IMG/VR virus record: IMGVR_UViG_3300046791_000056
Location: 1-46,272 of that record
DNA: 46,272 nucleotides
Reading direction: 5' to 3' (one strand)
Source of the DNA: a virus
A program made the position numbers and the translations under genes. Positions 922 through 45,703 of the stretch are shown here, piece by piece (positions within the stretch are counted from its first letter, which is position 1; each line of letters begins with the position of its first letter). The notes beneath the pieces are model-generated. The model made no database searches. It was given only the letters and a program-made list of their open reading frames with translations, and had not been told where the DNA came from.

Positions 922-1731
922 TTAGAACTTGGTTGTTGGTGTGTACTCTTTCGTTTTGGCGATGGATGGTTTAATCCACGTATCATACACAGGCTTATCA
1001 CCGAATACGATTTCATTCGGCAGTTCCAATGCTGTACGTGCGAAGTCATCACCAGTGTGCGTTGTCAGTAATGAATAGTCACCTCCCGCTCCTTCTACGA
1101 ATCCCTTCTTGATATTGAAGTGGTACACTTCACCACAATACGCAGGGATTTTAGCAGCTACCTTCTTCCCGGCAGTAACAACCTGACGAGATACGTGGGT
1201 AGTATTGTTAGTTGTATTCCGATACTCAGCCTGAATGACGTGAGCAATCAGAATGACATTTACCTTGTGGTAAACATGGATGTCCTTAGAGAGTGCAATC
1301 AACTCCTGAATCGCTGCCGACTCAGCGTTGTAGTCCTCAATCTCATTGACTGCGATGCCTGCGATCAATTTACCAGCAGCCGCCCCTGATGCGCGTGTCA
1401 TACCATATTTCATCTTGGTAGTCTGACGCAGCGTCATGTCAGCCATCGAAGTAATCGAGTCAAACACCAGAGTCTTATACGGACAATCAGTCTGGAGTTT
1501 CTCCAACTTCTGCTTCGGTTTTGTCCAATCATCGTAATCATCGAACTGAATGGTCTTAGGATCAATTCCCCACTTCTTCATGGGGAGTGAAATTCCATTC
1601 ATCTTGCGGTCCCATGAGAACCAGTATTGAGGCCCAGGGAATGATAGAGCCTGAGTCGATTTCCTTGTTCCTGGTTCACCCTTAAACAGGCAGTAGAGAG
1701 CATCAAACCCTACAGATTCCATAGTTGGCAT
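922..1731 (-). CDS. Sak4/RecA-like P-loop ATPase (AAA_24 type)
   Basis: This is a 269-aa NTPase of recombination type. Walker A is GEPGTRKST at residues 18-26; the Arg-Lys form is common in phage Sak4 and AAA_24 ATPases. Walker B is TLVFDS with the Asp at residue 91. The single-domain length fits Sak4, which promotes single-strand annealing or exchange together with a partner binding protein. The DUF669-like gene follows directly and a Cas4/RecB-like nuclease lies two small genes upstream, making an exonuclease-recombinase-binding protein set. The role is well supported by family; direct activity is inferred. Confidence 0.85.
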   Translation of the reverse strand: MPTMESVGFDALYCLFKGEPGTRKSTQALSFPGPQYWFSWDRKMNGISLPMKKWGIDPKTIQFDDYDDWTKPKQKLEKLQTDCPYKTLVFDSITSMADMTLRQTTKMKYGMTRASGAAAGKLIAGIAVNEIEDYNAESAAIQELIALSKDIHVYHKVNVILIAHVIQAEYRNTTNNTTHVSRQVVTAGKKVAAKIPAYCGEVYHFNIKKGFVEGAGGDYSLLTTHTGDDFARTALELPNEIVFGDKPVYDTWIKPSIAKTKEYTPTTKF

Positions 1732-2156: not shown

Positions 2157-2314
2157 TATTTCTTCCTCTTCTCAATGCATTCAGGACATTCAATCCATGC
2201 GCGCACGATGATACCTTTGTCTGGAGTGTTAGTAGGAACTGGGTAGAATCCAGTTGATACCTGCTTACCACACTCCATACAATGGAGGAATTCAAGTTTT
2301 GAATCAGTCTGCAC
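2156..2314 (-). CDS. Small zinc-ribbon protein (52 aa, GTG start)
   Basis: The start is GTG at 2314, sharing one base with the TAG stop of the nuclease gene; GAGGAG sits just before it. The protein has two cysteine pairs, HCMECGK near residues 11-17 and ECPECIE near residues 42-48, as in a treble-clef or rubredoxin-like zinc ribbon. A basic end (EKRKK) follows. It lies between the nuclease and the Sak4-like ATPase and may be a nucleic-acid-binding accessory. Function unknown. Confidence 0.75.
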   Translation of the reverse strand: MQTDSKLEFLHCMECGKQVSTGFYPVPTNTPDKGIIVRAWIECPECIEKRKK

Positions 2315-3279
2315 TACTCCTCTTTCGCTTTAGTTGGGTCCCAGATGGGAGCCTTAATAAAGTTCATTCTTAATTCCTCTTCCCTCATTCCTCTGTCAGC
2401 TTCACACACGCCCTTGTATGGACATGGACCGAACATGGTATCGCAGTGCGTGTAGTCTGGAGGCCAGTATCCACTCTCTGCGAACTCAAGGAATCTGTAG
2501 GCATAGTAGGGTAGAGTCTCACTCTGCCACTCATCGAGTCTGTCTGCCGAGAATGAAATGACCTCGCGTGTCAGTCTCTCTTCAATCTTCAGTGTAGACT
2601 GTAAACCTATTTTGTTTACAATCACATTGCGAGACCTGAGTAGGTGACACTGACCCATGAATTGATTACTCAGAGAAGACTTGTCACGCCTCTGTTTGAA
2701 GGTCTTATGGTCCATCGATACGATACCGATTTGATTCGTATCGATTACCAAATCGAACTTCGCCTTCCACATCACACGAATCTCATCATCCTCATAGAGA
2801 ATCCTACCGTCTACGTTCTCTACTGAGAGTGGAATGAATGCGTCATTCTTGTAGTGCTCGAAGTATTGCTCACAGGTTTTCATGGCGAATGTCCATCCAG
2901 TCACATAACCTGATGACTGCTCTGGAGTATTCGTCATACCCGGATACTCGTCTACTTCATGGTTACAGGTCGGTTTCCTTACAGTATCCGACTCGATGAA
3001 ACCCGCACAGTGTGGGCAGCCATTGATGAATAGTTGACCTGCGGCGAGGGCTTGACCGATGGATGTGTTGGTAGGAAAGCCACCAATCTTATGCTTGTAG
3101 TAAACCTCCAATACTTTGTGTATTAGAGAGCCTACTTCAAGCGAGTTCGATTTTCCTCTGACACTCACAAGTCGATGGTTGAATCGAATGTCATAGTATC
3201 GACCACAACTCATGAGAGATGACAGTGAGGTAGCGTCGAGGATGACATTCTTCTTTGGTGTTGGAATGATATCAGCCAT
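2314..3279 (-). CDS. Cas4/RecB-like PD-(D/E)XK exonuclease
   Basis: The 321-aa protein has the core of the PD-(D/E)XK superfamily: GSLIHKVLEVYYK with His54, KFDLVID with Asp176, SMDHKTFKQ with Asp190 and Lys192, and a Q-x3-Q motif (QFMGQ) at 206-210. Cysteines at 25, 279, 286 and 292 match the N- and C-terminal placement of the iron-sulfur ligands of Cas4/AddB nucleases. An extra CPHC (88-91) lies in an insertion. It probably resects DNA ends for the Sak4-like ATPase. Its ATG overlaps the previous stop by one base. The nuclease fold is confident; the cluster is inferred. Confidence 0.85.
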   Translation of the reverse strand: MADIIPTPKKNVILDATSLSSLMSCGRYYDIRFNHRLVSVRGKSNSLEVGSLIHKVLEVYYKHKIGGFPTNTSIGQALAAGQLFINGCPHCAGFIESDTVRKPTCNHEVDEYPGMTNTPEQSSGYVTGWTFAMKTCEQYFEHYKNDAFIPLSVENVDGRILYEDDEIRVMWKAKFDLVIDTNQIGIVSMDHKTFKQRRDKSSLSNQFMGQCHLLRSRNVIVNKIGLQSTLKIEERLTREVISFSADRLDEWQSETLPYYAYRFLEFAESGYWPPDYTHCDTMFGPCPYKGVCEADRGMREEELRMNFIKAPIWDPTKAKEE

Positions 3280-6493: not shown

Positions 6494-6592
6494 CTACTTC
6501 TTTCGCTCATCCTCATCTCGCTGAATCAGCACTATGAGAGTGAATAGTACGAGAATCAGTAGACCGACTAGCTGATAGGGGGAATTACTCAT
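6494..6592 (-). CDS. Single-membrane-span microprotein (32 aa)
   Basis: ATG 6592 overlaps the TGA of the SprT-SNF2 gene (ATGA). The peptide is MSNSPYQL, one hydrophobic span (VGLLILVLFTLIVLI), then a charged end (QRDEDERKK). A short exterior and charged interior tail fit a small inner-membrane protein, possibly an exclusion factor or holin-like peptide. Too short for a family call. Confidence 0.65.
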   Translation of the reverse strand: MSNSPYQLVGLLILVLFTLIVLIQRDEDERKK

Positions 6593-8664
6593 TTCTTCCC
6601 TCTCTTCCGCTTGTGAGCCGACACGATAGTTTCCGCCAGCTCACGGATGATGGAATCCTCGTTCCACCTCGCCATCTCCGTGTTATTCATCCCAGCATGG
6701 AATTGTCTTCTCTTCCTCTCCACGATGCCATCTAACTGTGGGTCGATGGTTGTCAACCCGTCGAGATGCGCGTATATCGCATTCACCGTGGATGCCGTCT
6801 GACCGATACGGATGAATCGTCCCTCTGCCTGCTCCTCATTCGCGGGATTCCACTGTCTCTCATGGATGACGCAATCCGCGCATGTCTGGAGATTTAATCC
6901 CTCACCAGCCGCGAGAGTGGATGCGACCATAATGGCTCTCGCTGAGGAATTAAACTTTTCCTGTACCTCGAAGCGTTCCTGTCCGCCCATGTCTGAGCTG
7001 ATTTTGCAGATATACATCTCTTCTGCGTATCGTTCTTCCATGTGTAGGAACAGAGAGTCCTGAACATCCTTGTGGTGAGCGAAAATCACCAGTTTCCTGT
7101 CAGTGTCCTCGACGTATTCATCGACGTATTCGAGTGTGGCAGGAATCTTTGCGAGTGCTACGAGGTGACGCATCTTAGACATCATAGCGATGATAGCCAT
7201 GCCTGTCATGGAAGCTGCTTCCTTCTCGTACCACTCTACGAATGAATCGACTGCCTCGTCGTAATTCCTCTCAGTGTCAGGGTCCATCACGACATTGAGT
7301 TTAGTGCGATTGACTAGTGGTAGTTCCTTCATGACTTCCGTCCTTTCGCGACGGATTAGAAGGTTCTTAGTGTGTTCCTTGAATAGTCGAGGATTCTTAA
7401 TTCCACCCTCTTTCTCATACGCGCCGACGTAGTACGTGTCAACCCATCTACGTCTGAACTCCGCTTCACTCCAGAACTTCACCGGGTCAATCATGTTGAG
7501 TACTGGAAACATCTCACTACCACGATTCTTCCATGGTGTGCCTGATAGTGCGATGACTTTCCTTGATGCGACTACCTTACGTACCATCTGTGTGCGCGTG
7601 CTATCCACGTTCTTGATTTGCTGACATTCATCGAGGACCACGCATTTAATTCCAATGCGGTCAAATTGCGTGATATCGAATCCCTGTTCGGCAGTTTTTC
7701 CTGACTTCAGCTTGCGTGATTTTGGCACGAGCATATCGTAGCCGATGATGTAGTTCTTCAGACCAGGGATTAGCCATTCCTTGCTGGAATTGACTATCTG
7801 AGGAACGTGTTCATTGCCCATCCATTTCAGAATACTAGTCGCGAATTGATACTTCAATCCGCTCTTCACAATCCACAGTGTGGGGAGGCAAATCTCCGGG
7901 TGGAAAAACACCGTAGCCATCGCCTGTTGAGTCTTGCCTAGACCCATCTCATCTGCTATGAGTGCGCCCTTACCTGCTACGAGTGCGGCTTCAACGAATC
8001 GACCACCATCCTGCTGATAGTCGAATAGCTTTTTACGTGAGCACTTGATGCAGTTATTTTTATCCCACTGGTGTTCGCAGGTCTTATCACCGAATGCCTG
8101 AAACTTGTGGAATGGCGTGCCTTTCGGGATGCGACGAATGATGGTGTGACCACACTCCAGATTGATGATTTTCGTATCTGGAGTGTCCTCATTCTTTCCC
8201 TTGATGATGGTTTCCTTGATGGACTTGGCGACTTTTCCGCATGACTCGCACTTATCCTGAAGCCGTGTGACAGTGTACTTCGGAGTGCGTATCACCTGCT
8301 CATCGAATGTCACCTCAACTGTGGCACCCGACCTGATAGCATCGATGATATGCGGACTCAGGGTCAGATTGCTACATGGAAGAGTGTTGTCGCATCCAAT
8401 CTCACGCGCGCGTTCAGCCCACACTGAGTCATGACCATGACCCGGACAGAGTGCGTGGGCTACCTCGTGGAGAATGGTATTCTCTACGTCGGGAGTAGGA
8501 TGGATGTCAACGTGGTGGGCGGACAAGATGATACATTTGTCCTTGTAGGAGCACAAACCTAAAAACCGAGATTCTGCGTTCTGATTCAAGCGAACGCCCC
8601 AATCTTTCAGGCCATGCTCATCTAGCTTCTGGCGAAGCTTCTGAGTAGCTTCCTGTCTAGTCAT
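6589..8664 (-). CDS. SprT-like metalloprotease fused to SNF2 helicase (691 aa)
   Basis: The N-terminal domain holds HEVAH at 66-70 and a third likely zinc ligand in CPGHGHDSVW (His76), as in SprT/Spartan proteases. A zinc-ribbon-like linker has CESC (139-142), CGH (171-173) and CEHQW...CIKC (196-208). The SNF2 ATPase follows: DEMGLGKT at 238-245, DECQ at 345-348, SGTPWKN at 374-380, GEGLNLQ at 587-593 and QAEGRFIRIGQ at 612-622. All key helicase residues are present. Spartan-type proteases cut proteins cross-linked to DNA and SNF2 motors move along DNA, so this enzyme may clear host or cross-linked proteins ahead of replication. AAGGAC precedes ATG. Confidence 0.9.
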   Translation of the reverse strand: MTRQEATQKLRQKLDEHGLKDWGVRLNQNAESRFLGLCSYKDKCIILSAHHVDIHPTPDVENTILHEVAHALCPGHGHDSVWAERAREIGCDNTLPCSNLTLSPHIIDAIRSGATVEVTFDEQVIRTPKYTVTRLQDKCESCGKVAKSIKETIIKGKNEDTPDTKIINLECGHTIIRRIPKGTPFHKFQAFGDKTCEHQWDKNNCIKCSRKKLFDYQQDGGRFVEAALVAGKGALIADEMGLGKTQQAMATVFFHPEICLPTLWIVKSGLKYQFATSILKWMGNEHVPQIVNSSKEWLIPGLKNYIIGYDMLVPKSRKLKSGKTAEQGFDITQFDRIGIKCVVLDECQQIKNVDSTRTQMVRKVVASRKVIALSGTPWKNRGSEMFPVLNMIDPVKFWSEAEFRRRWVDTYYVGAYEKEGGIKNPRLFKEHTKNLLIRRERTEVMKELPLVNRTKLNVVMDPDTERNYDEAVDSFVEWYEKEAASMTGMAIIAMMSKMRHLVALAKIPATLEYVDEYVEDTDRKLVIFAHHKDVQDSLFLHMEERYAEEMYICKISSDMGGQERFEVQEKFNSSARAIMVASTLAAGEGLNLQTCADCVIHERQWNPANEEQAEGRFIRIGQTASTVNAIYAHLDGLTTIDPQLDGIVERKRRQFHAGMNNTEMARWNEDSIIRELAETIVSAHKRKRGKK

Positions 8665-8699
8665 TTTATCGTCCTTACGGTATCGATGGAATGAGAAGT

Positions 8700-43052: not shown

Positions 43053-45611
43053 TTACTCCTCCACTAAAAACTGCTCAGTAACCGATTTAGGCATCTTAAA
43101 TTCGTGCTGTACTACCTCTTCAGTCTCTATTTCTTCTTCAATTATTTCAGGAAACTTGTATTTCTTCAAGTCCTTATAATTTTCCCCAATTTCAACATCG
43201 CAGGGAATCTTCAGGAATCTGCGAGGGAGGGAACATGCCTTGAAATTAATGGGACGTTCCATCTCCAACTTTGCTAGTGTGATGAAGTCGTCTAGATATT
43301 CATGTCTAACACTGAAGAGAAGCGCGTCATGTGCCTCAAGAATGATCTTCGCTTCTTTAAATTGTCTCTTAATTCTAATGCCAGCGGCTTTGGTATTATC
43401 AGTAACGGCCCGCTGGGGTAGGTAGGCCAATGCCTCTCTGAATAGGTCATCACCCCATCGTTCGTAAAATATACGCACACCACCTCGTTCTGCATCGATC
43501 CCCCAAGGTAATGGGGCCGTCAAACGACGGCTTTGTTTCAATTGTTCGATTATTTGCGCATGGAAAATCTGTTGTATCTTTGGTTGTTTCGTATGGAATA
43601 TTTTGAGTGCTCTCGCCGCAATGCTCTCATCAATAGTGATAGGAATCTTATACTTCCGTGCCTGCGTGTTGAGTTCGACAGATGCTCTCTTCGCACCAGC
43701 TCCAAGATGTCCCGCATGGCGAAGAGTCTTCCCGGCGAATCTAATCGGTGACTCGTATCCCAGAACCTTTTTGGAGTAATCGCTCTCAGAGCCACCGAAG
43801 AACCAACTCGCAGTAAGTGCGTGATAGTCATGTTCGTCAATGTCCTTTAATGCTTGTTCATCAGTTGCGAGGTTAAATACTACACGCGCCTCAGCTTGAG
43901 AACTATCTAGTTGGACGAATACTTCGCCCTCATCAGGGATATACATTCCACGCACATCAGCCCCAATATCACCGTGCTTAGTCATGACTTGGAATGCTGT
44001 GCCCATCACCTTCATGTCAGCTTTCTTACCTTTACCCACTAAGTCCACCATAGGTCTGATGGGTGGTTCCTGCTGTCCGGTCGAGGTACGACCGGTTTCG
44101 AGACACATGTAACAGGTGGTGCGCATCTTCTTATCGTAGTCTGGTATTGCGAAGAGATAGGTCGATATAGTCTTTCTGACCCTTCTCCTCTCCAGACATT
44201 TCTCTATCCACTCTCGTTGATTCGACCTATTCACCCCATGTTTGAGGTTCAGGAGACTCGTTAGTTCCTCCTCTCCAGTGCCGTGCCTGTATGGGAGTTT
44301 CCACTCATCGAATAGAAGTGCGTGTACCTGAACGGGAGAGCTGACATTAATGTCCACTCCTGCGAGTAGGAACATCTCATAGCCGAGTCGCTCATCCCAC
44401 ATCACGTATTTCTCTATCAGCTCACTTCTCTTACTCTCGTCGATACGAAACCCATTGTTCTCTATTTCGAGATAGAAATCAGGGAGCTTCATCAGGAAAT
44501 TTTCATAGAACTTGCGGACTCCTAATTCATCAATGTCCGCATCCATCGCCTCATCTATTTCGAGCGTAACACAACTATCTCTAGCACATCCGAGCAGTAG
44601 ATCTCTAATGTCCCCTTCATACATGCCTTCATCTTTATAGAAGGGTTCTCTCGTGTAGAGACTTGTACTGAATGCAAGCCCTTTTGGGAGTTCAGGGTTA
44701 ATTGCGAACGCTTTGAGCATAGTATCTGAGTGTATACTTCGGATGGTGAATCCAAGTCTACGCAACTTGTCCCGGTCATAATTAAAGTTTTGCCCAACAA
44801 TGTCCTTCTCCATCAATACCTTGGCAATCATCTGCCAAAGTGTTACCATATCTGAATCTGGAATGTTCGACAGTTTCCCATCATTCCATAGGGGGACTGT
44901 CATACCGTGATTCTTATTGAAAGACAGACCAATGCATATCGGAAGACAGTGACCACCGGCTTCGATATCTACGGAGAGTTTAGTTTTGTGCTTGTAGAGT
45001 TGAAGGAACTCATGTAACTCTCCAGAGTTATTGCAGATTTGAAGTACGCGATTGGGTAAATCCAACAAGGGTGAAACCCTCTCATCCCATGCGCGCTTCA
45101 TATCGAAGATGACTACTTGTCGGTTCCAATAACCTTTGACTTCACCACCCTTAGTACCAGGTAGAAAGTGCGCGGGATTATAGGTAGCGACAAATTTGTA
45201 ACCCATTCCTCTTTGGAGTGAACCACGGTGCTTAGAAATTTTATCTTTCCCTGAAATGGCCCACATAGCATTCCCACCGAGAGCAAGTATGCAGTTAGGT
45301 TTGATATCATTTAACTCTGTCCTGAGTTCTTCTAACTGCTGATCGATATCAATTCCAGCGTTCTTAGCTCTGACGTGGAAGGGTAGTTTCTTCCGCTCAA
45401 GATTTGGGGGCACACTGAATTTACTGGCAGTAGTAAGCCAGCATTCTGATCGTGGTACACCCGCATCTCTCAGGAGTCTATCGAGTTCACGACCAGCCGC
45501 GCCTGTAAATGGCTTACCGGCGATCGTATCCTCTCGGGTTGGAGCATCCCCTAGTATGACGAAATTGGCTCCAGATGGTCCGTAGCCCGGACAGTATTTG
45601 TTTTCACTCAT
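43053..45611 (-). CDS. Uracil-DNA-glycosylase / DNA polymerase I fusion (852 aa)
   Basis: I use ATG 45611, whose ATGA overlaps the upstream stop; an ATG 18 bases earlier is possible. The first ~175 residues are a family 4-like UDG (ILGDAPTREDTIAGKPFTGA, YNPAHFLPG). A 3'-5' exonuclease follows: SVDIEAGG (Asp215, Glu217), GQNFNYDRD and CARDSC (Asp345). The polymerase core has motif A QLDSSQAEARV (Asp569), motif B RFAGKTLRH (Arg624, Lys628) and motif C AHDALLF (Asp762). Motif C has Ala where most enzymes have Glu. A similar UDG-polymerase fusion is known from SPO1-like phages. Confidence 0.92.
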   Translation of the reverse strand: MSENKYCPGYGPSGANFVILGDAPTREDTIAGKPFTGAAGRELDRLLRDAGVPRSECWLTTASKFSVPPNLERKKLPFHVRAKNAGIDIDQQLEELRTELNDIKPNCILALGGNAMWAISGKDKISKHRGSLQRGMGYKFVATYNPAHFLPGTKGGEVKGYWNRQVVIFDMKRAWDERVSPLLDLPNRVLQICNNSGELHEFLQLYKHKTKLSVDIEAGGHCLPICIGLSFNKNHGMTVPLWNDGKLSNIPDSDMVTLWQMIAKVLMEKDIVGQNFNYDRDKLRRLGFTIRSIHSDTMLKAFAINPELPKGLAFSTSLYTREPFYKDEGMYEGDIRDLLLGCARDSCVTLEIDEAMDADIDELGVRKFYENFLMKLPDFYLEIENNGFRIDESKRSELIEKYVMWDERLGYEMFLLAGVDINVSSPVQVHALLFDEWKLPYRHGTGEEELTSLLNLKHGVNRSNQREWIEKCLERRRVRKTISTYLFAIPDYDKKMRTTCYMCLETGRTSTGQQEPPIRPMVDLVGKGKKADMKVMGTAFQVMTKHGDIGADVRGMYIPDEGEVFVQLDSSQAEARVVFNLATDEQALKDIDEHDYHALTASWFFGGSESDYSKKVLGYESPIRFAGKTLRHAGHLGAGAKRASVELNTQARKYKIPITIDESIAARALKIFHTKQPKIQQIFHAQIIEQLKQSRRLTAPLPWGIDAERGGVRIFYERWGDDLFREALAYLPQRAVTDNTKAAGIRIKRQFKEAKIILEAHDALLFSVRHEYLDDFITLAKLEMERPINFKACSLPRRFLKIPCDVEIGENYKDLKKYKFPEIIEEEIETEEVVQHEFKMPKSVTEQFLVEE

Positions 45612-45703
45612 TTTTGTAGGTCCATCCATCTAATTCGATAGACAATATAATAGTGTCCCTCAATTGATTCCCCACTTTCTATCACCTTAATTTTCGGGGG
45701 CAT
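45608..45703 (-). CDS. 31-aa microprotein before the polymerase
   Basis: ATG 45703 lies in the end of the zinc-ribbon gene and TGA 45608-45610 overlaps the polymerase ATG. It reads MPPKIKVIESGESIEGHYYI followed by VYRIRWMDLQK: a beta-hairpin pattern with basic ends. The ATGA junction fixes the polymerase start. The ribosome site is weak. Confidence 0.5.
   Translation of the reverse strand: MPPKIKVIESGESIEGHYYIVYRIRWMDLQK

Follow-up and report, generated by a model that had tools for sequence, protein, structure and literature searches.

The analyzed window, i.e., the whole 46,272-nucleotide stretch of viral DNA, contains DNA-metabolism genes on the minus strand and virion genes on the plus strand. 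The ORF that the preliminary description had placed at 6589-8664 does exist. It is located on the minus strand, begins with an ATG codon at position 8664 and ends with a stop codon at position 6589, and its product of 691 aa combines a SprT-like protease domain, two zinc modules and a SNF2 motor (Table 1).

Table 1. Features of the fusion gene and of the minus-strand module in the window.
Feature	Position	Strand	Basis
SprT-zinc-SNF2 fusion protein, 691 aa	6589..8664	minus	whole ORF
TAAGGA, ribosome-binding-like site just upstream of the fusion ORF	8672..8677	minus	direct reading of the sequence
SprT-like zincin domain, residues 1-97	8374..8664	minus	PF10263, E=4.1e-9; fold matches SPRTN 6mdx, selecase, Wss1
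HEVAHALCPGHGH, residues 66-78; zinc ligands H66, H70, H78 and catalytic E67	8431..8469	minus	73/73; roles by analogy with SprT proteins
Connector, residues 98-127	8284..8373	minus	low model confidence, sequence conserved
Zinc ribbon 1, C139/C142/C171/H173	8146..8250	minus	73/73; common to SprT-less orthologues
Zinc module 2, C196/H198/C205/C208	8041..8079	minus	72/72 with data; fused group only, absent from L026-L031
SNF2 motor, residues 212-691	6592..8031	minus	PF00176, PF00271; PDB profile match 1z63, E=1.9e-73
Walker A DEMGLGKT, residues 238-245	7930..7953	minus	K244 73/73
Walker B DECQ, residues 345-348	7621..7632	minus	D345/E346 72/72 with data
Motif VI RFIRIGQ, residues 616-622	6799..6819	minus	R616, R619 69/69 with data
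Upstream ORF, 227 aa	8700..9383	minus	next to the fusion in all cases with the upstream flank present
PD-(D/E)XK exonuclease of the same module	2314..3279	minus	PF12705, E=9.6e-9; PHROG 1218; adjoins the fusion in siblings
Sak4-like recombinase of the same module	922..1731	minus	PF13479; PHROG 124; near the fusion in siblings
Uracil-DNA glycosylase N-terminally fused to family A DNA polymerase	43053-45629	minus	Pfam: PF03167, E=7.8e-16; PF00476, E=8.4e-23

The product of the 227-aa ORF, which begins with a CxxC pair, gave neither a Pfam match above the cut-off nor a PHROG match. No homologue of this gene was found beside the SprT-less orthologues of the fusion; its product is a possible partner of the fusion protein. 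The other minus-strand genes of the window encode an HNH endonuclease, a primase-like DUF3987 protein and a cold-shock-domain protein. Homologues of the fused glycosylase and polymerase are present in several sibling contigs. It is suggestive only that this module encodes, besides a possible crosslink protease, a glycosylase, which makes abasic sites.

Domains of the fusion protein

Pattern scans of IMG/VR were used to gather fused homologues and yielded 73 distinct proteins carrying the SprT-SNF2 fusion, the others being 47-89% identical to the window protein. The preliminary description had assigned a SprT-like protease and a SNF2 motor to the ORF and had proposed domain searches as a check. 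Both assignments were recovered in Pfam above the curated cut-offs, namely SprT-like at residues 7-92 (E=4.1e-9; 36.7 bits against a cut-off of 25.6) and SNF2-related at residues 216-475 (E=3.3e-25), the latter followed by Helicase_C at residues 512-621 (E=5.1e-14), also above its cut-off. The N-terminal region matches several SprT-sized PHROGs and the remainder of the protein matches the PHROG 62 DNA helicases. The SprT-like profile was matched by all 19 N-terminal homologues scanned.

Residues 66-70 read HEVAH. A HExxH motif with a third histidine within residues 66-76 had been proposed; the motif itself stands, but H76 does not hold as a ligand, since it is kept in 62 of the 73 proteins (Q, N, K, M, F or E elsewhere), whereas H78 is invariant and lies in the SprT-type context HxxxW, the full pattern being HExxH-x7/8-H. 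Invariant among the 73 distinct proteins are H66, E67, H70, H78 and W82 of the protease domain, C139, C142, C171 and H173 of zinc ribbon 1 and K244 of the motor, while C196/H198/C205/C208, D345/E346 and R616/R619 show no exception in any protein with data at these positions.

A model of residues 1-216, predicted from 19 sequences, had a mean pLDDT of 77.5 with block means of 84-96 over residues 1-90, and showed the expected order of zincin elements with the motif helix at residues 57-72. Its best match among solved folds was human SPRTN (6mdx), which is significant yet modest (E 1.6e-3, probability 1.00), followed by selecase, jannalysin/abylysin and Wss1; the SPRTN/Spartan and Wss1 group is represented among the best matches by 6mdx, 6mdw and 5xbn. 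A sequence-profile search of the PDB with the N-terminus also ranked SPRTN first, although weakly (E 0.016). The matches to SPRTN, selecase, jannalysin and Wss1 place the predicted model in the minigluzincin-like zincin fold. Thus, both points on which the protease assignment had been made to depend, a zincin fold of the N-terminal part in the predicted model and conservation of the histidines among homologues (H66/H70/H78 in 73/73), speak for it. A chance occurrence of HExxH is ruled out by the Pfam profile, the predicted fold and the 73/73 conservation.

The motor motifs DEMGLGKT (K244), DECQ (D345/E346), SGTP and GEG, as well as R616 and R619, are all conserved, and together with the Pfam matches they confirm that the SNF2 motor is intact, as had been described. 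By profile, the motor comes closest among solved structures to the SNF2/Rad54-family helicase 1z63. In three fused members (L012, L013 and L014), RIGQ of motif VI is replaced by RIGS with the arginines retained.

The linker cysteines noted earlier are present and conserved. They fall into two groups: C139/C142/C171/H173, kept in 73/73 proteins, and C196/H198/C205/C208, kept in 72/72 with data. The first of them appears to belong with the helicase family and not with the protease: zinc ribbon 1 (residues 139-173) is homologous to the N-terminal ribbon of the unfused group, with an hhalign probability of 97.4% and E 1e-11. Two zinc modules follow the protease domain; no SprT zinc-ribbon profile matched in the fusion or the homologues scanned, and the modules were not recognised as the SprT zinc-binding domain. 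The most divergent fused member (L023:6001-8256; 47% identity) has an extra cysteine-rich insert inside zinc ribbon 1.

In the full-length model (mean pLDDT 83.9, pTM 0.75) the motor is ordered and the connector is poorly ordered, with the lowest confidence at residues 98-101 and 123-126. The conservation of the connector (residues 98-127) has a mean of 0.84, which is higher than that of either domain. Because it is conserved above both domains where the model is least confident, the connector may have a function of its own.

Distribution and origin of the fusion

Both domains are encoded in one ORF at 92 of the 93 loci, some of which lie on the same contig, and the lone SprT-only ORF (L247) stops at a contig edge. 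A fusion made by assembly is ruled out, since the 73 distinct proteins come from many contigs and the split occurs only at a contig end. The comparison with a close relative (L002) gave dN/dS values of 0.056 (SprT part) and 0.069 (motor), comparisons with saturated dS having been left out; these low values indicate that both halves are under constraint. Profiles, conservation, predicted structure and the 73 distinct fused proteins thus agree with the earlier proposal of a protease and a motor on one polypeptide. Many sibling contigs are 44-49 kb long, suggesting that the genome size of the fusion-bearing phages is about 47 kb.

The fusion was also sought outside this lineage. No place covering 80% of the fusion protein was found in any of 50,697 phage or 72,556 plasmid records, which does not support an ordinary fusion widespread in phages. 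In a single scan of genome contigs, the matches listed were to SNF2 only. Among the top 50 matches of the full-length model to named viral models, none was whole-length; the named viral fold matches of the N-terminal model were standalone SprT-like proteins, and the significant viral SprT fold matches were 85-277 aa long, plus one of 449 aa (not examined). No fusion was found in 195 sampled Bacteroidota and Myxococcota genomes, where SprT-like matches lay mostly in frames of fewer than 450 codons. A SNF2 motor was present in none of the 12 long-frame SprT-like cases from these genomes, a positive control having been included. Several SprT-like domains of Myxococcota (L256-L263) occur within open frames 600-940 codons long that have no SNF2 motor, and these are either real long proteins or GC-rich open frames. 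In the literature searched (open-licence papers), no description of a SprT-SNF2 fusion was found. The compact SprT-zinc-SNF2 protein is therefore regarded as a new, conserved domain architecture, the combination of a zincin with SNF2 being itself known from polyvalent proteins.

The nearest unfused relatives (L026-L031) share with the PHROG 62 phage SNF2 helicases and with the fusion the same motor, the first zinc ribbon and the gene module, but both groups differ from the fusion in having neither the SprT domain nor the second zinc module. The L026-L031 proteins start at or shortly before the zinc ribbon CxxC...CxH, and hhalign comparison with their N-termini revealed no counterpart of the SprT part. 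No SprT-like match was found elsewhere in the five of these six records that were searched whole (records possibly incomplete). Because homologues of the exonuclease and recombinase adjoin the fused genes and most SprT-less genes alike, the SprT-less orthologues and the fusion are positional equivalents in the replication-recombination module; therefore, the helicase can fulfil its basic role without the protease.

In a tree of the motor, whose root is not fixed, all 18 fused rows form one group with 100/100 support beside the zinc-ribbon SprT-less proteins. The simplest history would be a single gain of the SprT domain and zinc module 2 by a zinc-ribbon SNF2 helicase. Since the tree root is not fixed, a single SprT loss in the sister lineage would also be compatible with these data.

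Possible function and comparison with known systems

Each half of the fusion, the SprT-like protease and the SNF2 motor, is well known. Phage SprT-like proteins are common and, to our knowledge, functionally uncharacterised. The nearest relatives of the protease domain are standalone SprT-like proteases of Mycobacterium, Gordonia and Streptomyces phages, which show about 47% identity over 93 residues and are 150-200 aa long without a helicase. In the Gordonia phages AikoCarson and Yakult, the standalone SprT gene lies a few kb from genes of PolA, a Cas4 exonuclease and a RecA-like recombinase, and in the Mycobacterium phage Rebeuca an exonuclease gene is located about 4 kb from it; near the standalone SprT gene of the Streptomyces phage Moab, no association with replication genes was seen.

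SPRTN/Spartan and Wss1 share with the fusion a zincin fold in which HExxH is followed at a distance by a third histidine. However, they contain no SNF2 motor and depend on separate partners such as FANCJ or p97 (PMC12279946), whereas the fusion has its motor on the same chain. In eukaryotic crosslink repair, the separate helicase FANCJ or p97 unfolds the protein for SPRTN, and in reconstituted assays SPRTN needs FANCJ for the unfolding of the crosslinked protein (PMC12279946). By analogy, the fusion would combine in one molecule what SPRTN and an unfolding helicase do together.

It can be assumed with moderate confidence that the protein is a phage replication/recombination enzyme whose ATP-driven motor brings DNA-bound or crosslinked proteins to the protease on the same chain. 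The SNF2 motor would translocate along DNA using ATP and would displace, remodel or partly unfold proteins bound or crosslinked to it, the zinc modules could help to hold the DNA, and the tethered SprT zincin would cut the displaced protein. The net role would be the clearance of roadblocks, including DNA-protein crosslinks, from phage DNA. More tentatively, the protein may be a dedicated DNA-tracking protease, whose SNF2 motor would pass the proteins it encounters on DNA straight to the protease domain, so that in DNA-protein crosslink repair a single polypeptide would carry out unfolding as well as cutting. We infer proteolysis, its coupling to translocation, the contact of the zinc modules with DNA and the substrate alike. 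The location of the gene in the replication/recombination module fits the DNA-repair reading, and membership in this module is compatible with a regulatory protease too.

A role in counter-defence or host takeover, in which the motor would move the protease along DNA so that host nucleoid, restriction or repair proteins bound to phage DNA are degraded, is considered unlikely. SprT-like proteases of jumbo phages were proposed to target host proteins, given their patchy spread (PMC7824862), and polyvalent phage proteins with MPTase and SWI2/SNF2 domains also join a zincin peptidase and a SNF2 ATPase in one polypeptide, in anti-restriction settings (PMC5512222). The fusion, in contrast, is kept in every lineage member examined and belongs to a conserved replication/recombination module and not to a variable accessory region, and the surroundings of its active site are strongly conserved and not diversifying. 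The polyvalent proteins are large and multi-effector, often with methylase or ADP-ribosyltransferase domains, and their peptidase clades were described as distinct from known zincins (PMC5512222), whereas the fusion is compact; its Pfam matches above the cut-offs are limited to SprT-like, SNF2 and Helicase_C, and it lacks the several unrelated conflict domains (methylase, ART, ParB-like and others) of the polyvalent type.

A self-cleaving switch, in which the SprT domain would cut its own chain, probably in the connector, and thereby free or limit the motor, with substrates in trans being secondary, appears rather improbable. SPRTN cleaves itself (PMC5127644), self-processing was predicted for the peptidases of polyvalent proteins (PMC5512222), and the connector contains the two stretches of lowest model confidence. 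Yet its conservation, above that of either domain, is unlike that of a simple cleavable spacer, and motors that lack such control do occur, namely in the SprT-less orthologues. That the SprT fold is a non-cutting relic which merely helps the motor to bind DNA or partners is very improbable, since the presumed zinc ligands H66, H70 and H78 as well as the catalytic E67 are retained in 73/73 proteins down to 47% identity, whereas in a relic the loss of at least some of these residues could be expected.

If the reading of the protein as a replication/recombination enzyme that clears proteins from DNA is correct, this compact phage enzyme would provide a minimal system for studying the coupling between translocation and proteolysis on DNA, with the SprT-less orthologues at the same gene position as a natural comparison, and would give phage SprT-like proteins a testable role. 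It would also suggest that a phage lineage of about 47 kb, known from environmental DNA, performs with one enzyme the protein clearance for which cells use separate proteins.
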